Assembly: GCA_947172415.1 (NCBI GenBank)
Contig: OX359196.1
Coordinates: 2,730,501 to 2,794,500, forward strand
DNA length: 64,000 bases
From: Chondrosia reniformis
Taxonomy: Eukaryota > Porifera > Demospongiae > Chondrillida > Chondrillidae
Direction of reading: 5' to 3'
Part shown: positions 4,144 to 63,110 of the stretch, piece after piece
How the letters are laid out: each line of letters begins with the position of its first letter
Numbering within the stretch: position 1 is the stretch's first letter
The notes under the pieces: model-generated
Database searches by the model: none
Told to the model about the DNA's origin: nothing
What the model saw: the letters and a program-made list of their open reading frames with translations, nothing else
Translations under genes and position numbers: made by a program

Positions 4144-4269
4144 CATTCACTTTCCTCTCATACGCAGGTTGTTAGTTTTACTTTTATTTCCATATACATT
4201 GTACAATGTTTTTGTACTAATTAGTCTTTGCAGTTAGCAGAAGAAGGAAAACATGAAGAGAACATTGTT

Positions 4270-4410
4270 GTGGCAATTGTAGTTCAGTAACAGAGCACTG
4301 GTGGTCATAACCAGTTGCCCTGATTCTTACATGTTTTTCCCTCTTCATGATGTTTGAGAATGATTATAACTACTTGTGGTTTGATTATCATTTCACTTAT
4401 ATTCATGTAT
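4270..4410 (+). mobile_element. Decayed tRNA-derived SINE, copy a
   Basis: It shares the head GTGGCA..TTGTAG.TCAGT and CTGGTGGTCATAACCAG with the SINEs at 62621 and 62959. It also shares the downstream stretch TTTTTCCCTCTTCATGATGT and the motif TTGTGGTTTGATTATCA. Relative to those copies it lacks about 25 bases that hold the B box (GGTTCGATTCC), so it should be unable to drive RNA polymerase III. It immediately precedes a possible exon at 4419. Confidence 0.7.
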
Positions 4411-4816: not shown

Positions 4817-4895
4817 GTATATAAATCAGTTTTGTATTGATAATTTGTTCGATTACAACCGAATGATTTACAATTCACCATTAAATCATTACTAT

Positions 4896-5851
4896 CCAAG
4901 GACTGTCTTCGGTATTGCTTCACAGCCCATATTTTCGAAACCGGTGGCTATTTTTAACTTGGCTATAGGTCGAAGAACTTCGGGAACCCTTTAATCGAGT
5001 CCGGCGGCAATTCTTAACCAAGGATTTGTCTTCCGTACGGCTTAATAGCCCATATTTCGAAATCGGCGGCCATTTTTAACTCGTTGATAGGTCGTAGAGC
5101 TTTGGGGACCCTTTACTCGAGACAGGCGGCCATTTTTATCCAAGAAACGTCTCCAGTACGGCTGCATAGCCCATATTTTCCAAATCGGCTGCCATTTTTA
5201 ACTCGGCGATAGATTGTAGAGCTGCGGGGACCCTTTAACCGAATCCAGCGGCCATTTTTCTCCTAGGAATCGACTTCGGAACGGCTTCCTAGCCCATATT
5301 TTCCAAATCGGCGGCCATTTTTAACTTGGCCATAGGTTGTAGAGCTTCGAGGACCCTTTAATCGAGTCCGGCGGCCATTTTTCTCCAAGGAACGTCTCAG
5401 GAACGGCTTCATAGCCCATATTTTCGAAAACGTCGGCCATTTTTAACTCGGCAATAGTTCGTAGATCTTCAGGGACCCTTTAGTCGAGTACAGCGGCTAT
5501 TTTTATTGAAGAAACGGTCTTCGGTACGGCTTCACAGCCCATATTTTTGAAATCGGCGGCCATTTTTAACTAGGAGTAAGGTCATAGAGCTTCGGAGACC
5601 CTTTAATCGCGTCCGGCGGCCATTTTTATCCAAGGAACCGTCTTCGGTACGGCTTCCTAGCCCATATTTTCGAAATTGGCGGCCATTTTTAACTTGGCGA
5701 TCGGTCGTTGAGCTTCGGGAACCCTTTAATCGAGTCCGGCGGCCATTTTTAACCAAGAAACGTCTCCGGTACGGCTTCATAGCCCATATTTTCGAAATCT
5801 GCGGCCATTTTTAACTCGGTGATAGGTCGTAGAGCGTCGGGGACCCTTTAA
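4896..5851 (+). repeat. 123-bp satellite array, first segment
   Basis: Tandem units of about 123 bp carry the landmarks CGGCGGCCATTTTTAACTCG, GGTCGTAGAGCTTCGGGGAC, CCTTTAATCGAGTCCGGCGG and CTTCATAGCCCATATTTTCG. Each unit has two related halves of about 60 and 63 bp, both starting CGGCGGCCATTTTTA, so the monomer is an ancient dimer. The first units at 4896-5060 are the most diverged. The segment ends at the TTAA used by the MITE. Confidence 0.93.
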
Positions 5852-6332
5852 CCCTTTCCGCGCCAACTTATTGCGTGGGCGGCCCTATACCTTATGACTG
5901 ACTTTTTCGAAGGCCACGTGATGTACGTAAGTGCTACGTGTAAGGTAAGGTTGTTTTTACGACTGAGGAAGTGGATTCTCGTCAAGTTTAGCCTTTCGAA
6001 TCAAGTGAAGAGAACGGACCAGGCACTAACCCTAACCCTAACCCTATGCGGTCGCATTCATTGGTCAGTTCTCTTCACTCACACGTACGTATACGGTTAA
6101 TTAGTAGGCTTTTTTCGCCACGGAGGGAAGGTTCCTGCCACCTGTGTGCACTAATCGTAAAGTGCAACTGTCTGACGACCACTTAACACCTGTTAGAGTT
6201 TACTTTGGCCACGTATATGCTAATAATTCGCCGGGAAAGCCTGCCACCTATCTATGACGATGTATATCGTCAACGGTTATCGGCTGCATATAATTATCAT
6301 GACGATGTATATCGTCAACGGTCATTAAAGGG
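5852..6332. mobile_element. piggyBac-like MITE (481 bp) with a telomere-like tract
   Basis: The element interrupts a 123-bp unit exactly at TTAA (5848-5851), and TTAA is repeated at 6333-6336. Its ends are CCCTTT and AAAGGG, matching the TTAA-CCCTTT ends usual for piggyBac-type elements. It has no transposase. At 6029-6049 it holds about three and a half CCCTAA repeats, flanked by inverted arms GTGAAGAGAACGGACC and GGTCAGTTCTCTTCAC. Near its right end a 24-base direct repeat contains the hairpin GACGATGTATATCGTC, at about 6255 and 6300. Confidence 0.8.
6028..6049 (+). repeat. Interstitial telomere-like repeat inside the MITE
   Basis: CCCTAA is repeated about three and a half times; this is the complement of the metazoan TTAGGG repeat. 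The tract lies in the loop of a 16-bp inverted repeat inside a mobile element, so it is not a chromosome end. Confidence 0.8.
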
Positions 6333-6336
6333 TTAA

Positions 6337-9300
6337 TCGAGTCCGGCGTACATTTTATTCCAAGAAACCATCTTCGGTACAGCTTTATAGCCTGTATTTT
6401 CGAAATTGGCGGCCATTTTTAACTCGGTGATAGCTCGTAGAGCTTCGTGGACTCTTTAATCGAGTCCGGCGGCCATTTTTATCCAAGAAACGATCTTCGA
6501 TACGGCTTTATAGCCCATATCTTTGAAATCGGCTGCCACTTTTAACTAGGCGATAGGTCGTAGAGCTTTGGGACCCTTTAATCGAGTCCGGCGGCCATTT
6601 TTATCCAAGAAACGGTCTTCGGTAAGGCTTCCTAGCCAATATTTTCCAAATCGGCGGACATTTTTAACTTGCCCATAGGTTGTAGAGCTTCGTGGACCCT
6701 TTAATCGAGTCCCGCGGCCATTTTTACCCAAGAAACGGTCTACAGTGCGGCTTCATAGCCCATATTTTCGAAATCGTCGGCCATTTTTAATTCGGAGATA
6801 GGTTGTAGAGCTTCGGGGACCCTTTAGTCGAGTCCGGCGGCCATTTTATTCAAGAAATGGTCTTCGGTACAGCTTTATAGCCCATATTTTCGAAATTGGC
6901 GGCCATTTTTAACTAGGCGATGGGTCGTAGAGCTTCGGGGACCCTTTAATCGAGACCAGCGGCCATCTTTATCCAAGAAACGGTCTTCAGTGCGGCTTCA
7001 TAGCCCATATTTTCGAAATTGTCGGCCAATTCTAATTCGGAGATAGGTCGTAGAGCTTCGGGGACCCTTTAGTCGAGTCCAGCGGCTATTTTAATCCAAG
7101 AAACGGTCTTCAGTATGGCTTCGTAGCCCATATTTTCGAAATCGTTGGCCATTTTTAACTCGGAGATAGGTTGTAGACCTTCGGGGACCCTTTAATCGAC
7201 TCCTGCGGCCATGTTTATCCAAGAAACGGTCTTCGATACAGCTTCATAGCCCATATTTTGGAAATCGGTGGCCATTTTTAACTCGGCGATAGGTCGTAGA
7301 GCGTAGAGGACCTTTAATCGAGTCCGGCGGCTATTTTTATCCAAGAAATGGGCTTGGGTACGGCTTCATAGCCCATTTTTTCGAAATCGGCGGCCATTTT
7401 TAACTCTGCGATTGGTCGTAGAGCGTAAGGGACCCTTTAATCGAGTCCGGCGGCCATTTATATCCAAGAAACCATCTTCGATACGGCTTTATAGCCCATA
7501 TTTTCGAATTCGGCGGCCATTTTTAACTCGGCGATAGGTCGTAGAGCTTCAGGGACCCTTTAGTCGAGTACAGCGGCTATTTTTATCCAAGAAACGGTCT
7601 TCGGTACGGCTTCCTAGCCCATTTTTTCGAAATTGGCGGCCATTTTTAACTCGGCGATAGGTTGTGGAGCGTCAGGCACCCTTTAATCAAGTCCGGCGGC
7701 CATTTTTATCCAAGAAACGTCTCCGGTACGGCTTCATAGCCCATATTTTCCAAATCGGCCGCCATTTTTAACTCGGCGATAGGTTGTAGAGCTTCGGGGA
7801 CCCTTTAATCGAATCTGGCAGCCATTTTTTCCTAGGAACTGACTTCGGAACGGCTTCCTAGCCCATATTTTCCAAATCGGCGGCAATTTTTAACTTGGCG
7901 ATAGGTTGTAGAGCTTCCGGGACCCTTTAATCAACTCCTGCGGCCATGTTTATCCGAGAAACGGTCTTCGATACAGCTTCATAGCCCATATTTTGGAAAT
8001 CGGTGGCCATTTTTAACTCGGCGATAGGTCGTAGAGCGTAGAGGACCTTTAATCGAGTCCGGCGGCTATTTTTATCCAAGAAACGGTCTTCGATACAGCT
8101 TCATAGCCCATATTTTGGAAATCGGTGGCCATTTTTAACTCGGCGATAGGTCGTAGAGCGTAGAGGACCTTTAATCGAGTCCGGCGGCTATTTTAATCCA
8201 AGAAACGGTCTTCAGTATGGCTTCGTAGCCCATATTTTCGAAATCGTCGGCCATTTTTAACTCGGAGATAGGTTGTAGACCTTCGGGGACCCTTTAATCG
8301 ACTCCTGCGGCCATGTTTATCCAAGAAACGGTCTTCGATACAGCTTCATAGCCCATATTTTGGAAATCGGTGGCCATTTTTAACTCAGCGATAGGTCGTA
8401 GAGCGTAGAGGACCTTTAATCGAGTCCGGCGGCTATTTTTATCCAAGAAATGGGCTTGGGTACGGCTTCATAGCCCATTTTTTCGAAATCGGCGGCCATT
8501 TTTAACTCTGCGATTGGTCGTAGAGCGTAAGGGACCCTTTAATCGAGTCCGGCGGCCATTTATATCCAAGAAACCATCTTCGATACGGCTTTATAGCCCA
8601 TATTTTCGAATTCGGCGGCCATTTTTAACTCGGCGATAGGTCGTAGAGCTTCAGGGACCCTTTAGTCGAGTACAGCGGCTATTTTTATCCAAGAAACGGT
8701 TTTCGGTACGGCTTCCTAGCCCATTTTTTCGAAATTGGCGGCCATTTTTAACTCGGCGATAGGTTGTGGAGCGTCAGGCACCCTTTAATCAAGTTCGGCG
8801 GCCATTTTTATCCAAGAAACGTCTCCGGTACGGCTTCATAGCCCATATTTTCCAAATCGGCCGCCATTTTTAACTCGGCGATAGGTTGTAGAGCTTCGGG
8901 GACCCTTTAATCGAATCTGGCAGCCATTTTTCCTAGGAACTGACTTCGGAACGGCTTCCTAGCCCATATTTTCCAAATCGGCGGCAATTTTTAACTTGGC
9001 GATAGGTTGTAGAGCTTCGGGGACCCTTTAATCGAGTCCGGCCGACATTTTTCTCCAAGGAACCCTCTTCGGAACGGTTTCCTAGCACATATTTTCCAAA
9101 TCGGCGGACATTTTTAACTCGGAGATAGGTCGTAGTGCTTCGGGGACCCTTTAATTGAGTCCTGGGGCCATTTTAATCCAAGAAACGGTCTTCAGTATGG
9201 CTTCGTAGCCCATATTTTCGAAATTGTCGGCCATTTTTAATTCGGAGATAGGTCGTTGAGCTTCCGGGACCCTTTAGTCGAGTCTAGCGGCTATTTTAAT

Positions 9301-12300
9301 CCAAGAAACGGTCTTCAGTATGGCTTCGTAGCCCATATTTTCGAAATCGCCGGCCATTTTTAACTCGGAGAGAGGTCGTAGAGCTTCGGGGACCCTTTAA
9401 TCGAGTCCTGGGGCCATTTTTATCCAAGAAACGGTCTTGGGTACAGCTTCATAGCCCATATTTTGGAAATCGGTGGCCATTTTTAATTTGCGATAGATCG
9501 TAGAGCTTCGGGGACCCTTTAATCGAGTCCGGCAGCCATTTTTATGCAAGAAACAGGCTTCGGTACGGCTTCATAGCCCATATTTTCGAAATCGGCGGCC
9601 ATTTTTAACTCGCGATAGGTCGTAGAGCGTCGAGGACCCTTTAATCGAGTCCGGCGGCCATTTTTATCCAAGAAATGGTCTTGGGTACGGCTTCATAGCC
9701 CATTTTTTCGAAATCGGCGGCCATTTTTAACTTGGCCATAGGTTGTAGAGCTTCGAGGACCCTTTAATCGAGTCCGGCGGCCATTTTTCTCCAACGAACC
9801 GTCTTCGGAACGGCTTCCTAGCACATATTTTCGAAATCGCAGCCCATTTTTCACTTGGCGATAGGTTATAGAGCTTTGGGAACCCTTTCATCAAGTCCGG
9901 CGGCCATTTTTCTCCAAGGAACATCTCCGGAACGGATTAATAGCCAATATTTTCCAAATCGGCGGCCATTTTACTTTGGCGATAGGTTGTACAACTTCGG
10001 GGACCCTTTAATCGAGTGCGGCGAACATTTTTCTCCAAGGAACTGTCTTCGGAACGGCTTCTTAGCCCATATTTTCTAAAACGGCGGCCATTTTTAACTT
10101 GGCGATGGGTTGTAGAGTTTCGGGGACCCTTTAATCGAGTCCAGCGGCCATTTTTCTCAAAGGAACCGTTTTCGGAACGGCTTCCTAGCACATATTTTCG
10201 AAATCGGCGCCCATTTTTAACTTCGCGAAAGGTTGTAGAGCTTCGGGAACCCTTTCATCGAGTCCGGCGGCCATTTTTCTCCAAGGAACGTCTCCGGAAC
10301 GGCTTCATAGCCGATATTTTCCGTAGCTGCGGCCATTTTAAACTCGGTTATAAGTCGTAGAGCTTCAGGTACCCCTTCATCGAGTCCGGTGGCCATTTTT
10401 CTCCAAGGAACGTCTCCGGAACGGCTTGATAGCTCATATTTTCGAAAATGTCGGCTATTTTTAATTCGGTGATAGGTCGTAAAGCTTCGGGGACCTTTTA
10501 GTCGAGTACTGCGGCTATTTTTATCCAAGAAATGGTTTTCGGTATGGCTTCATAGCCCATATTTTCGAAATCGGCGGCCATTTTTAACTCGGAGATAGGT
10601 CATAGAGCTTAGGAAACCCTTTAATCGAGTCCGTCAAACATTTTTATCCATGGAACGTCTTCGGAACGGCTTCTTAGCCCATAATTTCTAAATCGGCGGC
10701 CATTTTTAACTTGACGATGGGTTTTAGAGCTTCGGGGACCCTTTAATCGAGTCCGGCGGCCATTTTTCTCAAAGGAACCGTTTTCGGAACGGCTTCCTAG
10801 CACATATTTTCGAAATCGGCGCCCATTTTTAACTTGGCGAAAGGTTTTAGAGCTTCGGGAACCCTTTCATCGAGTCCGGCGGCCATTTTTCTCCAAGGAA
10901 CGTCTCCGAACGGCTTCATAGCTGATATTTTCCATATTGGCGGCCATTTTAAACTCGGTTATAAGTCGTAGAGCTTCAGGAACCCTTTCATCGAGTCCGG
11001 CAGCCCTTTTTCTCCAAGGAACGTCTCCAGAACGGCTTGATAGCCCATATTTTCGAAAATGTCGGCCATATTTAATTCGGCGATAGGTCGTAAAGCTTCG
11101 GGGACCCTTTAGTCGAGTACTGCGGCTATTTTTATCCAAGAAATGGTTTTCGGTATGGCTTCATAGCCCATATTTTCGAAATCGGCGGCCTTTTCTACTC
11201 GGAGATAGGTCGTAGAGCTTCGGAAACCCTTTAATCGTGTCCGGCGAACATTTTTATCCATCGAACGTCTTCGGAACGGCTTCTTAGCCCATATTTTCTA
11301 ATTCGCGGCCATTTTTAACTTGGCGATGGGTTTTAGAGCTTCGGGGACCCTTTAATCGAGTCCGGCGGCCATTTTTATCCAAAAAATGGTCTTGGGTATG
11401 GCTTCATAGCCCATTTTTTCGAAATCGGCGGCCATTTTTAACTTGGCCATAGGTTGTAAGCTTCTAGGACCCTTTAATCGAGTCCGGAGGCCATTTTTCT
11501 CCAAGGAACCGTCTTCGGAACGGCTTCCTAGCACATATTTTCGAAATTGCAGCCCATTTTTAATTTGGCGATAGGTTGTAGAGCTTTGGGAACCCTTTCA
11601 TCGAGTCCGGCGGCCATTTTTCTCCAAGGAACATCTCCGGAACGGATTCATAGGCAATATTTTCCATATCGGAGGCCATTTTTACCTTGGCGATAGGTTG
11701 TAGAACTTCGGGGACCCTTTAATCGAGTGCGGCGAACATTTTTCTCCAAGGAACTGTCTTCGGAACGGCTTCTTAGCCCATATTTTCTAAATCGGCGGCC
11801 ATTTTTAACTTGGCGATGGGTTGTAGAGCTTCCGGGACCCTTTAATCGAGTCCGGCGGCCATTTTTCTCAAAGGAACCGTTTTTGGAACGGCTTCCTAGC
11901 CCATATTTTCGAAATCGGCGGCCATTTTTAACTCGGAGATAGGTCGTAGAGCTTCGGAAACCCTTTAATCGAGTCCGGCGAACACTTTTATCCATGGAAC
12001 GTCTTCGGAACGGCTTCTTAACCCATATTTTCTAAATCGGCGGCCATTTTTAACTTGACGATGGGTTTTAGAGCTTCGGGGACCCTTTAATCGAGTCCGG
12101 CGGCCATTTTTATCCATGGAACGTCTTCTGTATGGCTTCATAGCCCATATTTTCGAAATCGGCGGCCATTTTTAACTCGGAGATAGGTCGTAGAGCTTCA
12201 GAAAGCCTTTAATCGAGTGCTGCGGCTATTTTTATCCAAGAAACGGTTTTCGGTATGGCTTCATAGCCCATATTTTCGAAATCGGCGGCCATTTTTAACT

Positions 12301-15300
12301 CGGCGATAGGTCGTGGAGCTTCGGGGACCCTTTAGTCGAGTACTGCGGCTATTTTTATCCAAGAAACGGTTTTCGGTGTGGCTTCATAGCCCATATTTTC
12401 GAAATCGGCGGCCATTTTTAACTCGGAGATAGGTCGTAGAGCTTCGGGGACCCTTTAGTCGAGTACTGCGGCTATTTTTATCCAAGAAACGGTTTTCGGT
12501 GTGGCTTCATAGCCCATATTTTCGAAATCGGCGGCCATTTTTAACTCGGAGATAGGTCGTAGAGCTTCGGAAACCCTTTAATCGAGTCTTGCGGCCATTA
12601 TTATCCATGGAACGGTCTTCGGTATGGCTTCATAGCCCATATTTTCGAAATCGGCGGCCATTTTTAACTCGGCGATAGGTCGTAGAGCTTCGGGAACCCT
12701 TTAATCGAGTCCAGCGGCATTTTTTATCCAAGGAACGTCTCCGGTACGGCTTCATAGCCCATATTTTCCAAATCGGCGGCCATTTTTAACCTTCCGATAG
12801 TTCGTAGAGTTTTGGGAACCCTTTAATCGAGACCGGCGGCCATTTTTATCCAAGAAACGTCTCCGGTTCGGCTTCATAGCCCATATTTTCCAAATCGGCC
12901 GCCATTTTCAACTCGGCGATAGGTTGTAGAGCTTCAGGGACTCTTTAATCGAATCCGGTGGCCATTTTTCTCCTATGAACCCACTTCGGAACGGCTTCCT
13001 AGCCCATATTTTTCAAATCGGCGGCCATTTTTAACCTTCCGATAGGTCGTAGAGTTTTGGGAACCCTTTAATCGAGACCGGCGGCCATTTTTATCCAAGA
13101 AACATCTCAGGTACGGCTTCATAGCTCGTATTTTCCAAATCGGCCGCCATTTTCAATTCGGCGATAGGTTGTAGAGCTTCAGGGACTCTTTAATCGAATC
13201 TGGTGGCCATTTTTCTCCTATGAACCGACTTCGGAACGGCTACCTAGCCCATATTTTCCAAATCAGCGGCCATTTTTACCTTGGCGATAGGTTGTAGAGC
13301 TTCCGGGACCCTTTAATCGAGCCCTGCGAACATTTTTCTCCAAGGAACTGTCTTCGGAACGGCTCCCTAGCCCATATTTTCTAAATCGGCGGCCATTTTT
13401 AACTTGGCGTTGGGTTTTAAAGCTTTGGGGACCCTTTAATCAAGTCCGGCGGCCATTTTTCTCCCAGGAACCATCTTAGGAATGGCTTCCTAGCACATAT
13501 TTTCGAAATCGGCCCCCATTTTTAACATGGCGATAGGTTGTAAAGCTTCAGGAACCCTTTCATCGAGTCCGGTGACCATTTTTATCCAAGAAACGTCTCC
13601 GGTTCGGCTTCATAGCCCATATTTTCCAAATCGGCCGCCATTTTCAACTCGGCGATAGGTTGTAGAGCTTCAGGGACTCTTTAATCGAATCCGGTGGCCA
13701 TTTTTCTCCTATGAACCGACTTCGGAACGGCTTCCTAGCCCATATTTTTCAAATCGGCGGCCATTTTTAACCTTCCGATAGGTGGTTTTAGAGCTTCGGG
13801 GACCCTTTAATCAAGTCCGGCGGCCATTTTTCTCCCAGGAACCATCTTAGGAATGGCGTCCTAGCACATATTTTCGAAATCGGCGCCCATTTTTAACATG
13901 GCGATAGGTTGTAAAGCTTCAGGAACCCTTTCATCGAGTCCGGCGGCCATTTTTTCTCCAAGGAACGTCTCCGGAACGGCTTCATAGCCCATATTTTCGA
14001 AATTGGCGGCCATTTTTGACTTTCGGATAGGTCGTAGAGCTTTGGGAACCCTTTAATCGAGTCCGGTGACCATTTTTATCCAACAAACGTCTCCGGTACG
14101 GTTTCATAGCCCATATTTTCGAAATCGGCGGCCATTTTTGACTTTCCGATAGGTTGTAGAGCTTTGGGAACCCTTTAATCGAGACAGGCGGCCATTTTTA
14201 TCCAAGAAACGACTCCGGTACGGCTTCATAGCCCATATTTTCCAAATCGGCCACTATTTTTAACTCGGCGATAGGTTGTAGAGCTTCGGGGACCCTTTAA
14301 TCGAATCCGGCGGCCATTTTTCTCCTAGGAACGGTCTTCGGTAAGGCTTCATAGCCCATATTTTCGAAATCGGCGGTATTTGTAACTTGGCGATAGTTCG
14401 TAGGGCTTCGGGAACACTTTCATCGAGTCCGGAGGCCATTTTTATCCAAAGAATGTCTCCGGTACGACTTCGTAGCCCATATTTTCGAAATTGGCGGCCA
14501 TTTTTCACTCGGCGATAGGTTGTAGAGCTTCGGGAACCCTTTCATAGAGTCCTGCGGCCATTTTTATCCAAGGAACGACTCCGGCACGGCTTCATAACCC
14601 ATATTTTCGAAATCGACGGCCATTTTTAACCAAGGAATTGTCTTCGGTACGACTTCATAGCCCATATTTCGAAATCGGTGGCCAATTTTAACTTGTTGAT
14701 ATGTCGTAGAGCTTTGGGGACCCTTTAATCTAGTCCGGCGGCCATTTTTATCCAAGGGGCCGTCTTCAGTACGCCTTCTTAGCATATATTTTCGAAATGT
14801 GCGGCCAATTTTAACTCGTTGATATGTCGTAGAGCTTTGGGGACCCTTTAATCGAGTCGGGCGGCCATTTTTTACCCAGGAATCGTCTTCGGGACGGCTT
14901 CCTAGCCCATATTTTCGTATTCGGTGGCCATTTTTAACTCGGCGATAGGTAGTAGAGCTTCGGGGACCCTTTAATATAGTCTGGCGGCCATTTTTATCCA
15001 AGTAACTGTCTTCGGTACGGCTTCATAGCCAATATTTTCGAAATTGGCGGCCATTTTTAATTCGGCAATAACTCTGTTATAGGTCATACAGCTTCTGGGA
15101 CCCTTTAATTGAGTTCGGCGGCCATTTTTATCCTAGAAACTGACTTCTGTACAGCTTTATACCCCAATTTTTCGAAATCAGCAGCCATTTTTAATTCATA
15201 GATAGGTCATACAGCTTCGAGGACCCTTAAATTGGGTTAGGAGGCCATTTTTACCCTAGGAACGGTCTTGGGTACGGCTTCACAGCCCATATTTTCAAAA

Positions 15301-15925
15301 TCAGAAGTAATTTTTAACTCGGAGATAGGTTGTAGAGCTTCTGTGACCCTTAATTTGGGTTAGGCGCCATTTTTACCCTATAAACGGTCTTCTGAATGGC
15401 TTCATAGCCCAGATTTTTGAAATCGGCGGCCATTTGTAACTCGGAGATAGGTTGTTGAGCTTCGGTGACCCTTAAATCGGGTTCGGCGGCCATTTTACCC
15501 TAGGAACGGTCTTCGGTACGGCTTATAGCTCATATTTTTGAACTTGTAGAGCTTCAGGGCACACTTTAATCGAGTTTGGCGGCCATTTTTATCCTGGAAA
15601 CTCTCCGCAGTGCGGCTTCGTAGCCCATATTTTCGAAATCGGCATCCATTATTAACTCATAGATCTAAATCGGTTTTGGCAGCCATTTTTACCCAGGGGA
15701 GTGCCTATGTTACGGCTACATAGACCAAACTTTTCAAAGCAGCGGCCATATTTATTTACAGATAGGTCGTAGAGCTTCAGGAACCCTTCAATCGGGTTCG
15801 GTGGCCATTTTTAACATTGCTAAGGTCTTCTGTACGGCTTCATAGCCCAAAGTTTGGAAATTGACGGCCATTTTTACTCAGAAATAGGTTGTAAAGCTTC
15901 GGGGACCTTCAGGTTCGGCTACATA
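6337..15925 (+). repeat. 123-bp satellite array, main segment
   Basis: The array continues from the first segment, about 78 units. Because 123 is three times 41, open frames survive across units on the minus strand and read as a 41-residue repeat (KNGRRTRLKGPRSSTTYRQ...). Stops and frameshifts scattered between units argue against a real protein. Several higher-order blocks are visible: about 7085-7915 recurs at 8187-9020 (period about 1102, nine units); a five-unit block (period about 612) recurs around 10500 and 11110; near-identical neighbours lie at about 12333 and 12456. Units become strongly diverged after 15060. Confidence 0.93.
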
Positions 15926-21025: not shown

Positions 21026-21154
21026 TGTCATTGTGAGTGCTCAGTCTCACTTAGACTGTAGCCTCCATCCTCACTTAAAATGAAACCACAAGTGTTTCAC
21101 TTGTGGTGGATTTATAAGTGAGGGCAGTCATCCAATTTACCATCATTGAAGTGT

Positions 21155-21199
21155 ACCACACTGATGAGCCCAAATGAGGGCGAAACAGCTGTCTGTGGT
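21155..21199 (+). ncRNA. Type I hammerhead ribozyme, unit 1
   Basis: Stem I is ACCACA (21155-21160) paired with TGTGGT (21194-21199). The core CTGATGA is at 21161-21167. Stem II is GCCC/GGGC around AAATGA, and GAAA is at 21182-21185. Stem III is minimal, made from CAGCTG, followed by the cleavage triplet GTC ending at 21193. Every core nucleotide expected of a hammerhead is present. The tiny stem III is known from Penelope-type and retrozyme hammerheads, which are thought to cleave best as dimers. Confidence 0.88.
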
Positions 21200-21513
21200 T
21201 CTTTGATGAATTTTTTTCCATCTTTGGATGACTGGGAGGCGATCACTGGTTGCCAACTTAATAGGACTTCGGTCCCCCAGCCACGATCAGACTTTGGTCA
21301 CTTGGCTGGTATGGCGTAATACGTTCCAGTGATTATTTCTGATCATTTTAGCCTTTGCACAGGCTTAGTGCAATTAACTCCCTTTGTCATTGTGAGTGCT
21401 CAGTCTCACTTAGACTGTAGCCTCCATCCTCACTTAAAATGAAACCACAAGTGTTTCACTTGTGGTGGATTTATAAGTGAGGGCAGTCATCCAATTTACC
21501 ATCATTGAAGTGT

Positions 21514-21558
21514 ACCACACTGATGAGCCCAAATGAGGGCGAAACAGCTGTCTGTGGT
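21514..21558 (+). ncRNA. Type I hammerhead ribozyme, unit 2
   Basis: The sequence is identical to the unit 1 ribozyme, 359 bases downstream: stem I ACCACA/TGTGGT, core CTGATGA at 21520-21526, GAAA at 21541-21544 and GTC ending at 21552. Two ribozymes in one transcript would release one exact 359-nt monomer. Confidence 0.88.
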
Positions 21559-21703
21559 TCTTTGATGAATTTTTTTCCATCTTTGGATGACTGGGAGGCG
21601 ATCACTGGTTGCCAACTTAATAGGACTTCGGTCCCCCAGCCAAGATCAGACTTTGGTCACTTGGCTGGTATGGCGTAATACGTTCCAGTGATTATTTCTG
21701 ATT

Positions 21704-22783
21704 ACTACATACAGCTAATACTTATAATTAGTAAATTTAACTTGAACTAGTACATACAACTAGCGCATAAAACTAGTACCTACGACTAGTAAATATTACC
21801 AGTACTAGTACATACAACTAGTTATTAGAACTAGTATATGCAACTAGTACATAACTAATACATACAGTAAAATACATAAAACTAGTATATAACTAGTACA
21901 TACAACTAGTACATAAAACTAATACCTACAACTAGTAAATATAACAAGTGCTAGTACGTACAACTAGTACTTACAACTAGTGGCTACAGTTAGTAAGTAT
22001 AACCAGTACTAGTACATACCACTAGTTAAAACTACTAGTACATACAACTTGTTCTTAACTGGTACATACACCTGGTACATACTACGAGTACATACAAATA
22101 GTACATACAACTAGTACAGCCAAGTAGTACATTCAACTAGTACATACAACTAGTACATACACCTAGTATATAACTAGTCCATACAAGTAGTACATACAAC
22201 TAGTTCATACAATTAGAACACACAACTACTACATGCCACTAGTATATGCAACTAATACCTACAACTAGTAAACATAACTTGTACTAGTACGTACAACTAG
22301 TATTTACAACTAGTAAATATTACCAGTAATAGTGCATACAACTAGTTGATACAACTACTACAAACAACTAGTAGATAACTAGTACATATTGGTAGTACAT
22401 ACAACTAGTACATACAACTATATAGTACATAACTAGTTCATACAACTTGTACATACAACCAATACATACAAATAGTAAATACATACTATAACACTCAACA
22501 AGTACATGCAACTAGTACCTAGAACTAGTAAATATCACTAGTGCTAGTACATACAACTAGCACTTACCTAGTACCTAGTATAACTAGTACTAGAATTTAA
22601 AAGTAGCACATATACTAGTATAAACAACTAGTACATACAACTAGTACATTTAATTAGTACAAGTAACTACTAGATATAACTAGTAAATACACATAGAGCT
22701 AGTACATACCACTAGTTCATATTAGTTTTACATACAACTACTACATACAACTAGAAACTAGTGCATGGAACTAGAACATATAA
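21704..22783 (+). repeat. 13-bp satellite, segment 2
   Basis: This is satellite between the hammerhead element and the chimeric insertion. About 22205-22640 duplicates 17088-17530. Positions 22477-22595 are the apparent template for the inverted copy at 22784-22902. Confidence 0.9.
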
Positions 22784-22953
22784 TTCTAGTACTAGTTATA
22801 CTAGGTACTAGGTAAGTGCTAGTTGTATGTACTAGCACTAGATATATTTACTAGTTCTAGGTACTAGTTGCATGTACTTGTTGAGTGTTATAGTATGTAT
22901 TTCTGATCATTTTAGCCTTTGCACAGGCTTAGTGCAATTAACTCCCTTTGTCA
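22784..22953 (+). mobile_element. Chimeric retro-insertion: inverted satellite plus retrozyme 3' end
   Basis: The insertion is bounded by the 12-bp direct repeat TAGAACATATAA at 22772-22783 and 22954-22965. The first ~119 bases are the reverse complement of 22477-22595 with a few differences. The last ~55 bases (about 22899-22953) equal the retrozyme segment that ends CCCTTTGTCA, in the same orientation as at 21026. The two parts share ATTT at the junction. The paralogous site near 18145-18165 lacks the insertion. Reverse transcription primed at the target followed by a template switch would explain it (inference). Confidence 0.75.
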
Positions 22954-22965
22954 TAGAACATATAA

Positions 22966-24271: not shown

Positions 24272-26245
24272 CAGTGAATCCTCAGTTATCCAAACCCCAT
24301 TGGTCAAATGGCACAAAAATTTTATTCAGATAAGTGAAAAGTTCGGATAAGTGAAATACAATCAAATATGTAGAACCGTAGAACGATTTCTTTGGACGAT
24401 CAAGCACGCCAACAAAACATGTATAGATCAGTTTAATGATTGTATAACATTCTATAACATTGTACAAATACATATGCATGTGCTCATACATACATTTCCT
24501 TTTGTAGCATCTCTAGTAAGGTCCTCTCTTTTAGGGACTCTCCTCGTTTACGGACTGCGAGGGCATGTAGTTCTCTCAACATGCATGTGTTGTATGGATT
24601 TACTTCAGGCTGGTATTCAAGCCATGTGAGGCGCTTCTCAATCATATGAGCTGCCAGTTGGAGACAAGACAGACATTCGATTCTCCTTCCTCTGGTTCAG
24701 GCTCATCTTCCTGGTCAGGCACTTGCTCTGAGAGAACATGGTCACTGATTTTATCATCTGTAATCGGCTGAAAGCCAGGATCATTGGAATCACTGTTAAG
24801 CCAGGAACTTATCTCATTTTCATCCATACTGTATCCCAACTCCTGAAATTCATGTATAAATTCTTGCACATCTTCCTCTCCTTCAGTCTGATCTTCACCC
24901 TCCTTTGGTTCTTGAATAGGCATGATCTTTCTCCACGACTTGCGTAGTGTGGATTCTTTGATTTCACCCCATGACTCTGCGATGAGCACTGTGACAATTT
25001 TCATATTCAATGACTTCGGGAAATCAATGAGAGATACGCCATTCTCATCTTCTATCAATAGCCTTCGTAACAATTTCTTCTTGTAGTGGCACTTGAGTGC
25101 CATATGTACCCCTTGATCCATTGGTTGAAACAAGGAAGTGAAATTTGGTGGCAAGTAAAGGGCTGTGATCTTTCCATCATCACTAATGAGGTCTTCTTCA
25201 CTGGGGTGGGCAGGGCAATTATCCAGCACCAGAACAGCTTTTGGCTCAAAGCCAAGAGAAGAGAGCTCTTTGCGTACTGTAGGGATGAATGAGTTGTGAA
25301 ACCAGGCATGAAAAATCTAGGAGCTCATCCATGCACTTTTCTGGCCACAGTACTCCACAGGAAGGAAGTCCATCCTCAAACCCCTAAAACACCTTGGGTG
25401 TTTTGCTTTTCCGTTAACCTGGAGAGGTAACTTGATGGTGCCTGTAGCATTTGCACAGGCATTGATTGTGACTCTCTCTTTGCTCAGCTTTCTTCCATCA
25501 GCAGAGTGCTCAAAGGAAGCAGCTAGTGTCTTGTCTGACAACAAGCGAAAGTTAAGTCCAGTCTAGTCACAATTGAAAATTTGATTGAGAGTAAGCTTGT
25601 GCTCTTCAACGAATTCCCTGAAAGATGTGACGAAAGCTGCACTTGCTTCTGTATCAGCAGATAATTTCTCACCTTCAAGGGACAAGTTGCATATTCCGTG
25701 CCTCTTGTAGAACCTCCATTGCCAACCTGTACTTCCAGAGAAACTTGACTCTTCACCGCACATCTTCTTGTGCAGCTGGACAGCTTTTTCACACAATATC
25801 GGGCCTGAGATAGGTATACCCTCCATCCGCTTTTGTTTGAACCATAAGTAGACGGCCTTATCATGCTGTTCGTCATCTCAGACCTTCGTTACTTTTGCCT
25901 TTTTACTAATACCCATGTTGTGCATCTCCTGGTTGAAGCAAAGGATCTTATCCCGCTTCTTCTTAATATCCAAGACTGTGTCCTTTCCAATGCCATAGCG
26001 TTCGGCAATAACGTTAGCAGAGCTGCTCTCTAGCTGCTTTATGATGGCCACTTTGTCTTCAATACTTAAAAATGTTCTCTTTCGCTTAGGCTTTGCAGCG
26101 TTAGTAGACTCCGTCATCCTCGATCGAGCAAAAAACTTTAGCACGACTGAAACGTGTCACATTCGCATACGTTGGTATAATAATTGCATAATCCACGTGT
26201 CATGTGCAAGGTAATTTAGTGATCCAGATAATCGAGGATTCAAAG
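24272..26245 (-). mobile_element. Tigger/pogo DNA transposon, 1974 bp
   Basis: The element sits between TA at 24270-24271 and TA at 26246-26247. Its imperfect terminal repeats share TGAATCCTC..TTATC: CAGTGAATCCTCAGTTATCC on the left and CTTTGAATCCTCGATTATCT on the right read inward. Removing it and one TA joins the flanks into a sequence that exists uninterrupted in the paralogous block at about 19068, which fixes the insertion point. The left end also holds GGATAAGTGAA-type subterminal repeats, usual in Tigger elements. Confidence 0.88.
24642..26117 (-). pseudogene. Tigger/pogo transposase with three nonsense codons
   Basis: The frame spans 491 codons from the ATG at 26117 and is unbroken except for three in-frame stops, at codons 80 (TGA), 185 (TAG) and 267 (TAG). 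An N-terminal basic segment and a Psq/CENP-B-type helix-turn-helix (SIEDKVAIIKQLESSSANVI then GIGKDTVLDIKKKRDKI) come first. A second DNA-binding domain follows, with GWQWRFYKRHGI. The DDE_1 core has D184 in IFNCD, D299 in LDNCPAHP and D334 in LFQPMDQGV, with 34 residues between the last two. The C terminus is acidic (EEDVQEF, EDEPEPEEGES). The stop at codon 185 replaces the residue right after the first catalytic Asp, normally Glu in DETGL. Without frameshifts or deletions the copy looks recently dead. The gene acted on its own element; CENP-B is a domesticated relative. Confidence 0.9.
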
Positions 26246-62620: not shown

Positions 62621-62958
62621 GTGGCAGTTGTAGCTCAGTGGGAGAGCAATTGGTGGTCATAACCAGCTGCCCTGGGTTCGATTCCCAGCTATTGCTTCTT
62701 TCGTGTTTTTCCTTCTTTATGATGTTTGATTGATTATTACATGTGGTTTGATTATCACATCGATTTTTCATAGATTTACCCAGCTCTCCTGTGGTTGATG
62801 GTGGCCAGCGACCCATGGGTTAGATGGTCCCTCACACTGGAAATGGGCTGGGCTTTGATTATCAGCTTCTACGGATGAAGAGAATCACCACTGATTAAGA
62901 ATGTACACCAATTATTACTTGTAGTTAGCTTAAGAGGGAGAGCATGGGGGGCATTGCT
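62621..62958 (+). mobile_element. tRNA-derived SINE, copy b (long form)
   Basis: The head resembles a tRNA: A box TAGCTCAGTGG (62631-62641), anticodon stem TTGGT/ACCAG around GGTCATA, and a perfect T arm CTGGG-TTCGATT-CCCAG with B box at 62675-62685. The acceptor stem pairs poorly, and the base before the apparent anticodon is G rather than the invariant T. This is therefore a SINE head and not a functional tRNA gene. The body continues for about 260 bases with GTGTTTTTCC, TTATGATGTTTGATT and GTGGTTTGATTATCACAT. Confidence 0.8.
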
Positions 62959-63110
62959 GTGGCAGTTGTAGCTCAGTGGCAGAGCAACTGGTGGTCATAA
63001 CCAGCTGTCCTTGGTTCGATTCCCAGCAATTGTTTCTTTTGTGTTTTTCCCTCCTTATGATGTTTGATTTATAATTACTTGTGGTTTGATTATCACATCA
63101 ATTATTCATA
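62959..63110 (+). mobile_element. tRNA-derived SINE, copy c (short form)
   Basis: It starts directly after copy b with the same head (A box 62969-62979, B box GGTTCGATTCC at 63013-63023). It shares the body up to GATTATCACATCAATTATTC, then satellite resumes. Both promoter boxes match the RNA polymerase III consensus. The head-to-tail order gives a SINE dimer. Confidence 0.8.

Follow-up and report, generated by a model that had tools for sequence, protein, structure and literature searches.

Insertion anatomy of a hammerhead retrozyme family in the sponge Chondrosia reniformis points to Penelope-type mobilisation

On chromosome 8, the kidney sponge Chondrosia reniformis carries a short tandem array of a non-coding, hammerhead-bearing element of the retrozyme type, located within a stretch of 64,000 nucleotides (C8:2730501-2794500; hereafter the window, with positions counted from its first letter). 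Insertions of this family end outwards at two fixed sites of the repeat unit, designated A and B, and many consist of two arms in head-to-head orientation, one terminating at A and the other at B, composed of in-register units that meet at varied inner joints and lie between target-site duplications. Because the same pattern occurs in a Penelope family of the same genome, this insertion anatomy makes it highly probable that the retrozyme is moved by Penelope-type machinery. The mover of animal retrozymes has so far been an open question, with Penelope elements until now suspected. Here, a two-start-site signature that has been tied biochemically to a Penelope protein is present in two retrozyme families and one Penelope family of a single genome. 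A link to Penelope-like repeats had been raised in an earlier note on this DNA, made from the sequence alone, and the insertion anatomy now provides it with grounds that the note lacked.

A multi-copy retrozyme family with intact hammerheads

Tandem Repeats Finder (TRF) delimits the array at 21026-21702, with a period of 359, 1.9 copies and 99% matches, and blastn found one mismatch between the two units over 318 compared positions. Unit coordinates are given below as q1-q359, q1 being position 21026 of the window. Both programs agree with the earlier description of near-identical tandem 359-bp units devoid of an open reading frame (ORF), with the refinement that the second unit is partial (318 bp). 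Among the window frames, no stop-to-stop frame of 90 amino acids (aa) or more overlaps the array, so that the element lacks the ORF with reverse transcriptase (RT) and GIY-YIG domains that characterizes autonomous Penelope elements. The array is one-armed, terminates near A (q318) and is surrounded by a large 13-bp satellite (TRF).

Each unit contains a complete type I hammerhead, as the earlier note had proposed, and both copies score just above the gathering score of 34 of the Rfam covariance model Hammerhead_1 (RF00163), with an E value of 6.9e-5. Based on our own reading of the Rfam alignment, cleavage is predicted after the C of GUC, at sites 359 nt apart. The hammerhead core is kept in 59 of 64 complete copies, 41 of which are identical to that of the window (L051, L057, L058 and L060, whose flanks repeat other loci, were excluded); a core mutated in all other copies, the outcome that the earlier note had set against its own reading, is thus not what the genome holds. 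With RF00163, at least 65 matches were detected in the sponge genome, at least 51 of them above cut-off; this is no census, 73 of 11,921 candidates having been scored and the two hammerheads of the window being missing from the matches listed. The exact hammerhead pattern had no match in IMG/VR and GTDB contigs. Fold predictions indicate that the 677-nt array RNA is more stable than its shuffled versions (z = -10.4, 20 shuffles), as is the 359-nt monomer (z = -6.5, 100 shuffles, both boundaries of the input lying one base too early). These array and monomer folds contain the GGAC-UUCG-GUCC hairpin of the earlier note along with further long helices. Covariation support is thin, because only two of 100 predicted pairs change on both sides in an alignment of 14 sequences.

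The genome search for further copies that the earlier note had outlined revealed at least 123 matching pieces distributed over all 14 chromosomes, one unit being used as the query; this is a lower bound because 40 of 1206 candidates were scored. Forty clusters were fetched with their flanks (L031-L070, L031 being the window), and three subfamilies were distinguished by identity to the window's unit: alpha, to which the window belongs, beta (ca. 95%) and gamma (ca. 89%). A second retrozyme family (family 2), with a 354-bp unit and a hammerhead scoring 37.1 bits, is co-resident (L071); it was sampled as 40 clusters from the 40 of 1105 candidates scored, duplicated loci not being collapsed. The two above-cut-off hammerheads, the unit size, the short arrays, the lack of a 90-aa frame, the dispersed pieces and the high proportion of intact cores support the identification of the element as a multi-copy, non-coding, non-autonomous metazoan retrozyme family, as first proposed. 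Alternatively, unequal exchange could have spread an ordinary satellite, or the element could be a DNA transposon of the fold-back kind, the hammerhead being incidental in either case; this is suggested by the tandem units and by the location of the array within a large satellite. Matches on every chromosome, the absence of any arm of five full units within the 40 fetched clusters, the conserved ribozyme cores, and the flank duplications, unequal arms and varied inner joints described below argue against this explanation, which we regard as extremely improbable.

Recent activity had been deduced from the likeness of the two units in the array. This likeness is weak evidence on recency, because a template copied round yields identical units at birth; recent activity of the window's family is nevertheless plausible, since one copy, on C11, shares 99.7% identity with that of the window.

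Two fixed ends and head-to-head arms

In the 40 fetched clusters, outward array ends are mostly found at two sites of the unit, A at about q320 and B at about q5, the latter being 44-45 nt downstream. Copies ending at A stop after ...CTGATCA at q320, with some ends at 321-325 (...CTTATCA in gamma), and those ending at B stop after ...CTCCCTTTGTCA at about q5 (...TTTTTTCA in gamma). Many clusters are made of two arms facing away from each other, one ending at A and the other at B. With an A class counted as q296-330, its width being set by the BLAST ends of gamma copies, which fall short of their own A site (q306-316), 22 of the 23 family 1 clusters having two classifiable ends were A/B, with one A/A and no B/B, or 20 of 21 when L057 and L058 were merged into L056. 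Under even odds and independent clusters, the probability of 22/23 is 3e-6, and that of 19/20 is 2e-5. Family 2 gave a similar picture, with A/B in 24 of 26 two-ended clusters (A, q296-316; B, q338 or more). This one-A-one-B rule constrains the insertion mechanism quantitatively and is testable in any animal genome and in vitro.

Within arms, 34 of 49 tandem joints are exactly in register, 13 are within 2 bp and two are out of register. Inner joints, where the two arms meet, occur at varied places, and 23 of 24 are not exact fold-backs; the arms overlap by 1-14 bp in 14 cases, are joined bluntly in one and are separated by extra bases in nine. These features fit two separate complementary DNAs (cDNAs) joined end to end. 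In Adineta, the inversion of Penelope copies was proposed to result from self-priming (PMC3846280; this and the other papers cited are represented here by excerpts), and a Penelope-type mobilisation in which the inverted arm arises by self-priming on an antisense template would produce the head-to-head arrangement that this proposal was meant to explain. One of the 24 inner joints (L035) is indeed an exact fold-back, and two more (L044 and L052) miss one by no more than 4 nt; at the other 21, more than 4 nt of the unit separate the two arm ends, and self-priming does not readily explain why outer ends fall at a second fixed site or why A is paired with B. We consider this explanation improbable. 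On the palindromic joint between the two arms of L044, matches to microRNA families were also recorded, all below the gathering scores.

Typing assigned the two arms of a locus to a single subfamily in 20 of 20 cases, some arms carrying few diagnostic sites in this typing and the subfamilies possibly differing in age. A same-template test based on diagnostic variants in 11 loci gave a weak signal: 6 of 141 sites disagreed (4.3%, versus 12.3% when permuted), and a value this low was reached in 26 of 5000 permutations. When the sites were chosen more strictly, 4 of 121 disagreed and 239 of 5000 permutations were as low; L044 provides most of the signal.

The interval between A and B of the next unit is referred to as the tail. 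When tails were folded alone and compared with shuffled sequences, z was -0.23 for alpha, -2.56 for gamma, -3.06 for family 2 and 0.25 for Penelope, so that the gamma and family 2 tails are more stable than their shuffled versions and the alpha and Penelope tails are not. A pseudoknot in the retrozyme tails was considered and dropped, the copies being too alike for covariation, and the hairpin alone was retained.

Target-site duplications and a minimal insertion

Words of at least 9 nt common to both flanks were found in 21 of 40 clusters, versus 2.9% when flanks were permuted between clusters. They include 18 of the 22 A/B clusters, with shared words of 9-15 nt; among the other three, the word of L064 is element sequence. 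Since shared words can take in a few element bases, the true duplication is estimated at ca. 9-13 bp. Inspection by eye further identified tagttatatgta on both sides of L071, in family 2, and a duplication of ttaatactca at a tiny two-armed copy (L074).

Long interspersed nuclear elements (LINEs) produce duplications of ca. 10-15 bp and 5' truncated copies. Duplication lengths and 5' truncation are thus compatible with mobilisation by a LINE, the inverted arms being generated via twin priming, and the genome contains at least 150 RVT_1 matches, of which the LINE or other type is unassigned. In twin priming, the internal positions at which second-strand synthesis begins are scattered. Here, the second start mostly uses one of two sites separated by ca. 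44 nt, and the co-resident Penelope family behaves likewise, which makes LINE mobilisation very improbable.

The window also contains, separate from the main array and absent from the earlier note, a minimal insertion at 22772-22965 (see the table below). Retrozyme RNA apparently served as the template at one DNA end, and a strand or transcript of the nearby satellite at the other. The combination of one retrozyme arm with one satellite arm suggests that the two ends were primed independently.

Penelope elements of the same genome

At least 150 GIY-YIG matches were obtained from 382 candidates. Among the matches listed, 21 neighbour pairs lie within 6.5 kb, 12 of them head-to-head, one tail-to-tail and eight on the same strand. 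Locus L065 corresponds to the 3' part of one Penelope element, in which the GIY-YIG frame precedes a region with a candidate minimal hammerhead recognized by eye (CTGATGA, GAAAC and a stem I UACCA/UGGUA); Rfam returned no hammerhead on this locus at E 0.5 or better. When this 3' region was used as the query, 40 of 87 candidates were scored and 46 pieces were counted, the query itself and three short pieces being left out. Their ends are at q346-350 (19 pieces), q378 (18), q353 or q359 (two) and q381-397 (seven). The two main ends are 31 bp apart, defining a 31-bp tail, and a short end is combined with a long end in 15 of 15 head-to-head pairs, two of which (C13:2726 and C13:2728) possibly represent a single locus that was duplicated. 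At another Penelope locus (L077), a stop-free RT piece of 300 aa is followed, 0.6 kb downstream and in the same phase, by a GIY-YIG match whose open frame is 831 aa.

A tail common to retrozyme and Penelope elements was looked for, and none was found with the one Penelope family examined. The tail word of the retrozyme (16 nt, at most one mismatch) has 464 occurrences, the places listed being the first 100, versus none for the reversed control; exact tail words without the preceding retrozyme T have nine occurrences, counted on a different denominator from the 464. One of these nine, L073 (C1:2027500-2028100), is a small local C1 repeat that displays GAAACAGCTGTC near the tail word, which resembles a hammerhead 3' half beside a B end. 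A distinct group of GIY-YIG matches covers profile range 3-35 (e.g. C1:4319121), with open frames of up to ca. 1000 aa. No RT frame was found in the 1.3 kb of DNA upstream of one of them (L076); the RT of this group may be downstream, and we take the group to be a candidate Penelope type with an N-terminal endonuclease.

Proposed mobilisation mechanism

The purified Penelope protein of Anolis is reported to cut and extend both strands and to begin reverse transcription at two adjacent internal sites whose interval corresponds to the genomic tail (PMC11167929). In the proposed cycle, the sponge array would be transcribed, and its two hammerheads would excise a 359-nt RNA, with a host ligase probably circularising it. 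A protein of the Penelope-like type, bearing RT and GIY-YIG endonuclease domains and provided by other elements of the same genome, would bind the tail region and cut both target strands ca. 9-13 bp apart, and each DNA 3' end would prime reverse transcription at a fixed site flanking the tail, one at A and the other at B. Each cDNA would run round the template for a variable length, and the two would be linked where they meet, in many cases overlapping slightly, to give head-to-head, in-register arms between target-site duplications. A circular template is likely, the alternative being a linear multimeric transcript. More tentatively, and with somewhat less than even credence on our part, two Penelope protomers could work simultaneously on one and the same retrozyme RNA circle, the second strand starting at B, A being taken, and both copying that circle. 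Such a scheme would explain why A is paired with B, why multimers are in register and why both arms match in subfamily, and would make the retrozyme a minimal passenger consisting of a Penelope start cassette and a hammerhead.

Several observations weigh against this interpretation. The window's own array is one-armed and displays no recognisable duplication, the longest word shared by its flanks being 5 nt. Of the 39 family 1 clusters besides the window, 12 are one-armed, four have one end elsewhere and one is A/A; of the 40 clusters of family 2, 11 are one-armed, three have one end elsewhere, one is A/A and one B/B. The A class spans BLAST ends from q306 to q325, and L061 truly stops a few nt early. 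Several flanks consist of the 13-bp satellite or AT repeats (L056, L057), in which long shared words are commoner than in the pooled control. Waves of activity could also account for arms of the same subfamily, and the loci typed were themselves the source of the typing consensus. In-register units are equally expected from a linear multimeric transcript, and the standard helix III of the hammerhead was not seen in minimum-energy folds. On the Penelope side, the GIY-YIG match of L065 is just under its cut-off (22.4 versus 22.6 bits), the RVT_1 match of L077 is under the Pfam cut-off (23.6 versus 29.6 bits, E 4.6e-5), and the retrozyme tail differs from that of the Penelope family examined. In the excerpts of PMC11167929, no difference in start site is seen between strands, and ribozyme mutants still insert, cleavage being dispensable for insertion in vitro.

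Comparison with known retrozymes and Penelope elements

Animal retrozymes were defined in PMC7229834 (Cervera and de la Pena 2020) and PMC7761336, both of which name Penelope elements as candidate drivers; the former considers them a strong candidate, citing shared hammerheads, tandem copies and co-existence. LINEs or Penelope elements are named as movers of retrozymes in PMC11722881, while PMC8969392 states that retrozymes may depend on Penelope elements and describes Penelope copies with inverted pseudo-long terminal repeats (pLTRs) and short 3' extensions. The sponge family resembles the metazoan retrozymes of PMC7229834, which have a type I hammerhead, tandem units of 170-400 bp, co-resident Penelope elements, no long terminal repeat (LTR) reported and target duplications of more than 4 bp when present. 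Here, too, there is one hammerhead per unit, with dispersed tandem units of 359 bp, within the ca. 150-450 bp expected of this class, no coding capacity and duplications of more than 4 bp where recognised. In contrast, the host is a sponge, whereas the words "sponge", "Porifera" and "Amphimedon" are absent from the main text of that paper, and its excerpts contain no description of two-armed, head-to-head insertions bounded by two fixed ends. Among the listings obtained from the open-licence literature, none mentions retrozymes inserted head-to-head or retrozymes of sponges. Plant LTR retrozymes (PMC7229834, PMC7761336) are likewise hammerhead-bearing and non-autonomous, with a circular RNA that is a probable feature of the sponge element; unlike the latter, they have type III hammerheads and 4-bp duplications, as well as LTRs with a primer-binding site and a polypurine tract, features that the sponge family presumably lacks, although no search aimed at them was made.

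Typical Penelope elements, as illustrated by Adineta vaga (PMC3846280), share with the sponge retrozyme an inverted, head-to-head arrangement, in their case of pLTRs, with duplications of 8-10 bp in the examples given and, optionally, a 31-bp tail carried by one member of the inverted pair. The Anolis PAc Penelope (PMC11167929) is similar in its two internal RT starts with the tail between them. The retrozyme differs from Penelope elements in having no ORF, a hammerhead that passes the Rfam type I model and a 44-45-nt tail of other sequence.

Features of the window

Table 1. Retrozyme-related features of the window.
Feature	Position	Strand	Basis and remarks
Retrozyme unit 1 (q1-q359)	21026..21384	+	TRF, blastn, own-genome search
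Retrozyme unit 2, partial, 318 bp (q1-q318)	21385..21702	+	TRF, blastn; stops 2 nt before the usual A site
Type I hammerhead, copy 1	21155..21199	+	RF00163, 34.6 bits; predicted cleavage between 21193 and 21194
Type I hammerhead, copy 2	21514..21558	+	RF00163, 34.6 bits; predicted cleavage between 21552 and 21553
Tail between A (q320) and B (q5, next unit)	21346..21389	+	Outward ends of fetched clusters
Tail hairpin TTGCAC-AGGCTTA-GTGCAA	21355..21373	+	Fold prediction; possible pseudoknot with AGCC 21350-21353, by eye
Minimal insertion, left target-site duplication tagaacatataa (12 bp)	22772..22783	+	By eye
Minimal insertion, arm that is an inverted copy (98%, 121 nt) of satellite 22477-22597	22782..22902	.	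Repeat search
Minimal insertion, retrozyme piece q309-359 plus q1-6 (57 nt), ends at B	22898..22954	+	blastn, end analysis
Minimal insertion, right target-site duplication tagaacatataa	22954..22965	+	By eye

Two large satellites detected by TRF comprise 123/245-bp units at 4893-15542 and a 13-bp unit (TACATACAACTAG) that, in several stretches within 15920-62616, occupies most of what remains of the window; by eye, many retrozyme copies on the fetched loci appear flanked by the same 13-bp satellite. Between stretches of this satellite, the minus strand carries a broken pogo/Tigger-type transposase in adjacent frames (24642-26156; CENP-B_N, HTH_Tnp_Tc5 and DDE_1). A 485-aa open frame at 1210-2667 has no Pfam match and reads as transposase-like, with an LNPIERCW motif just downstream (by eye). 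Two tRNA-like repeats at 62623-62698 and 62961-63036 (Rfam tRNA, 46.1 and 44.4 bits; SeC according to ARAGORN) are followed by a similar downstream stretch, and a third, degenerate copy was recognized by eye at ca. 4262-4400; these repeats look like a tRNA-derived short interspersed nuclear element.
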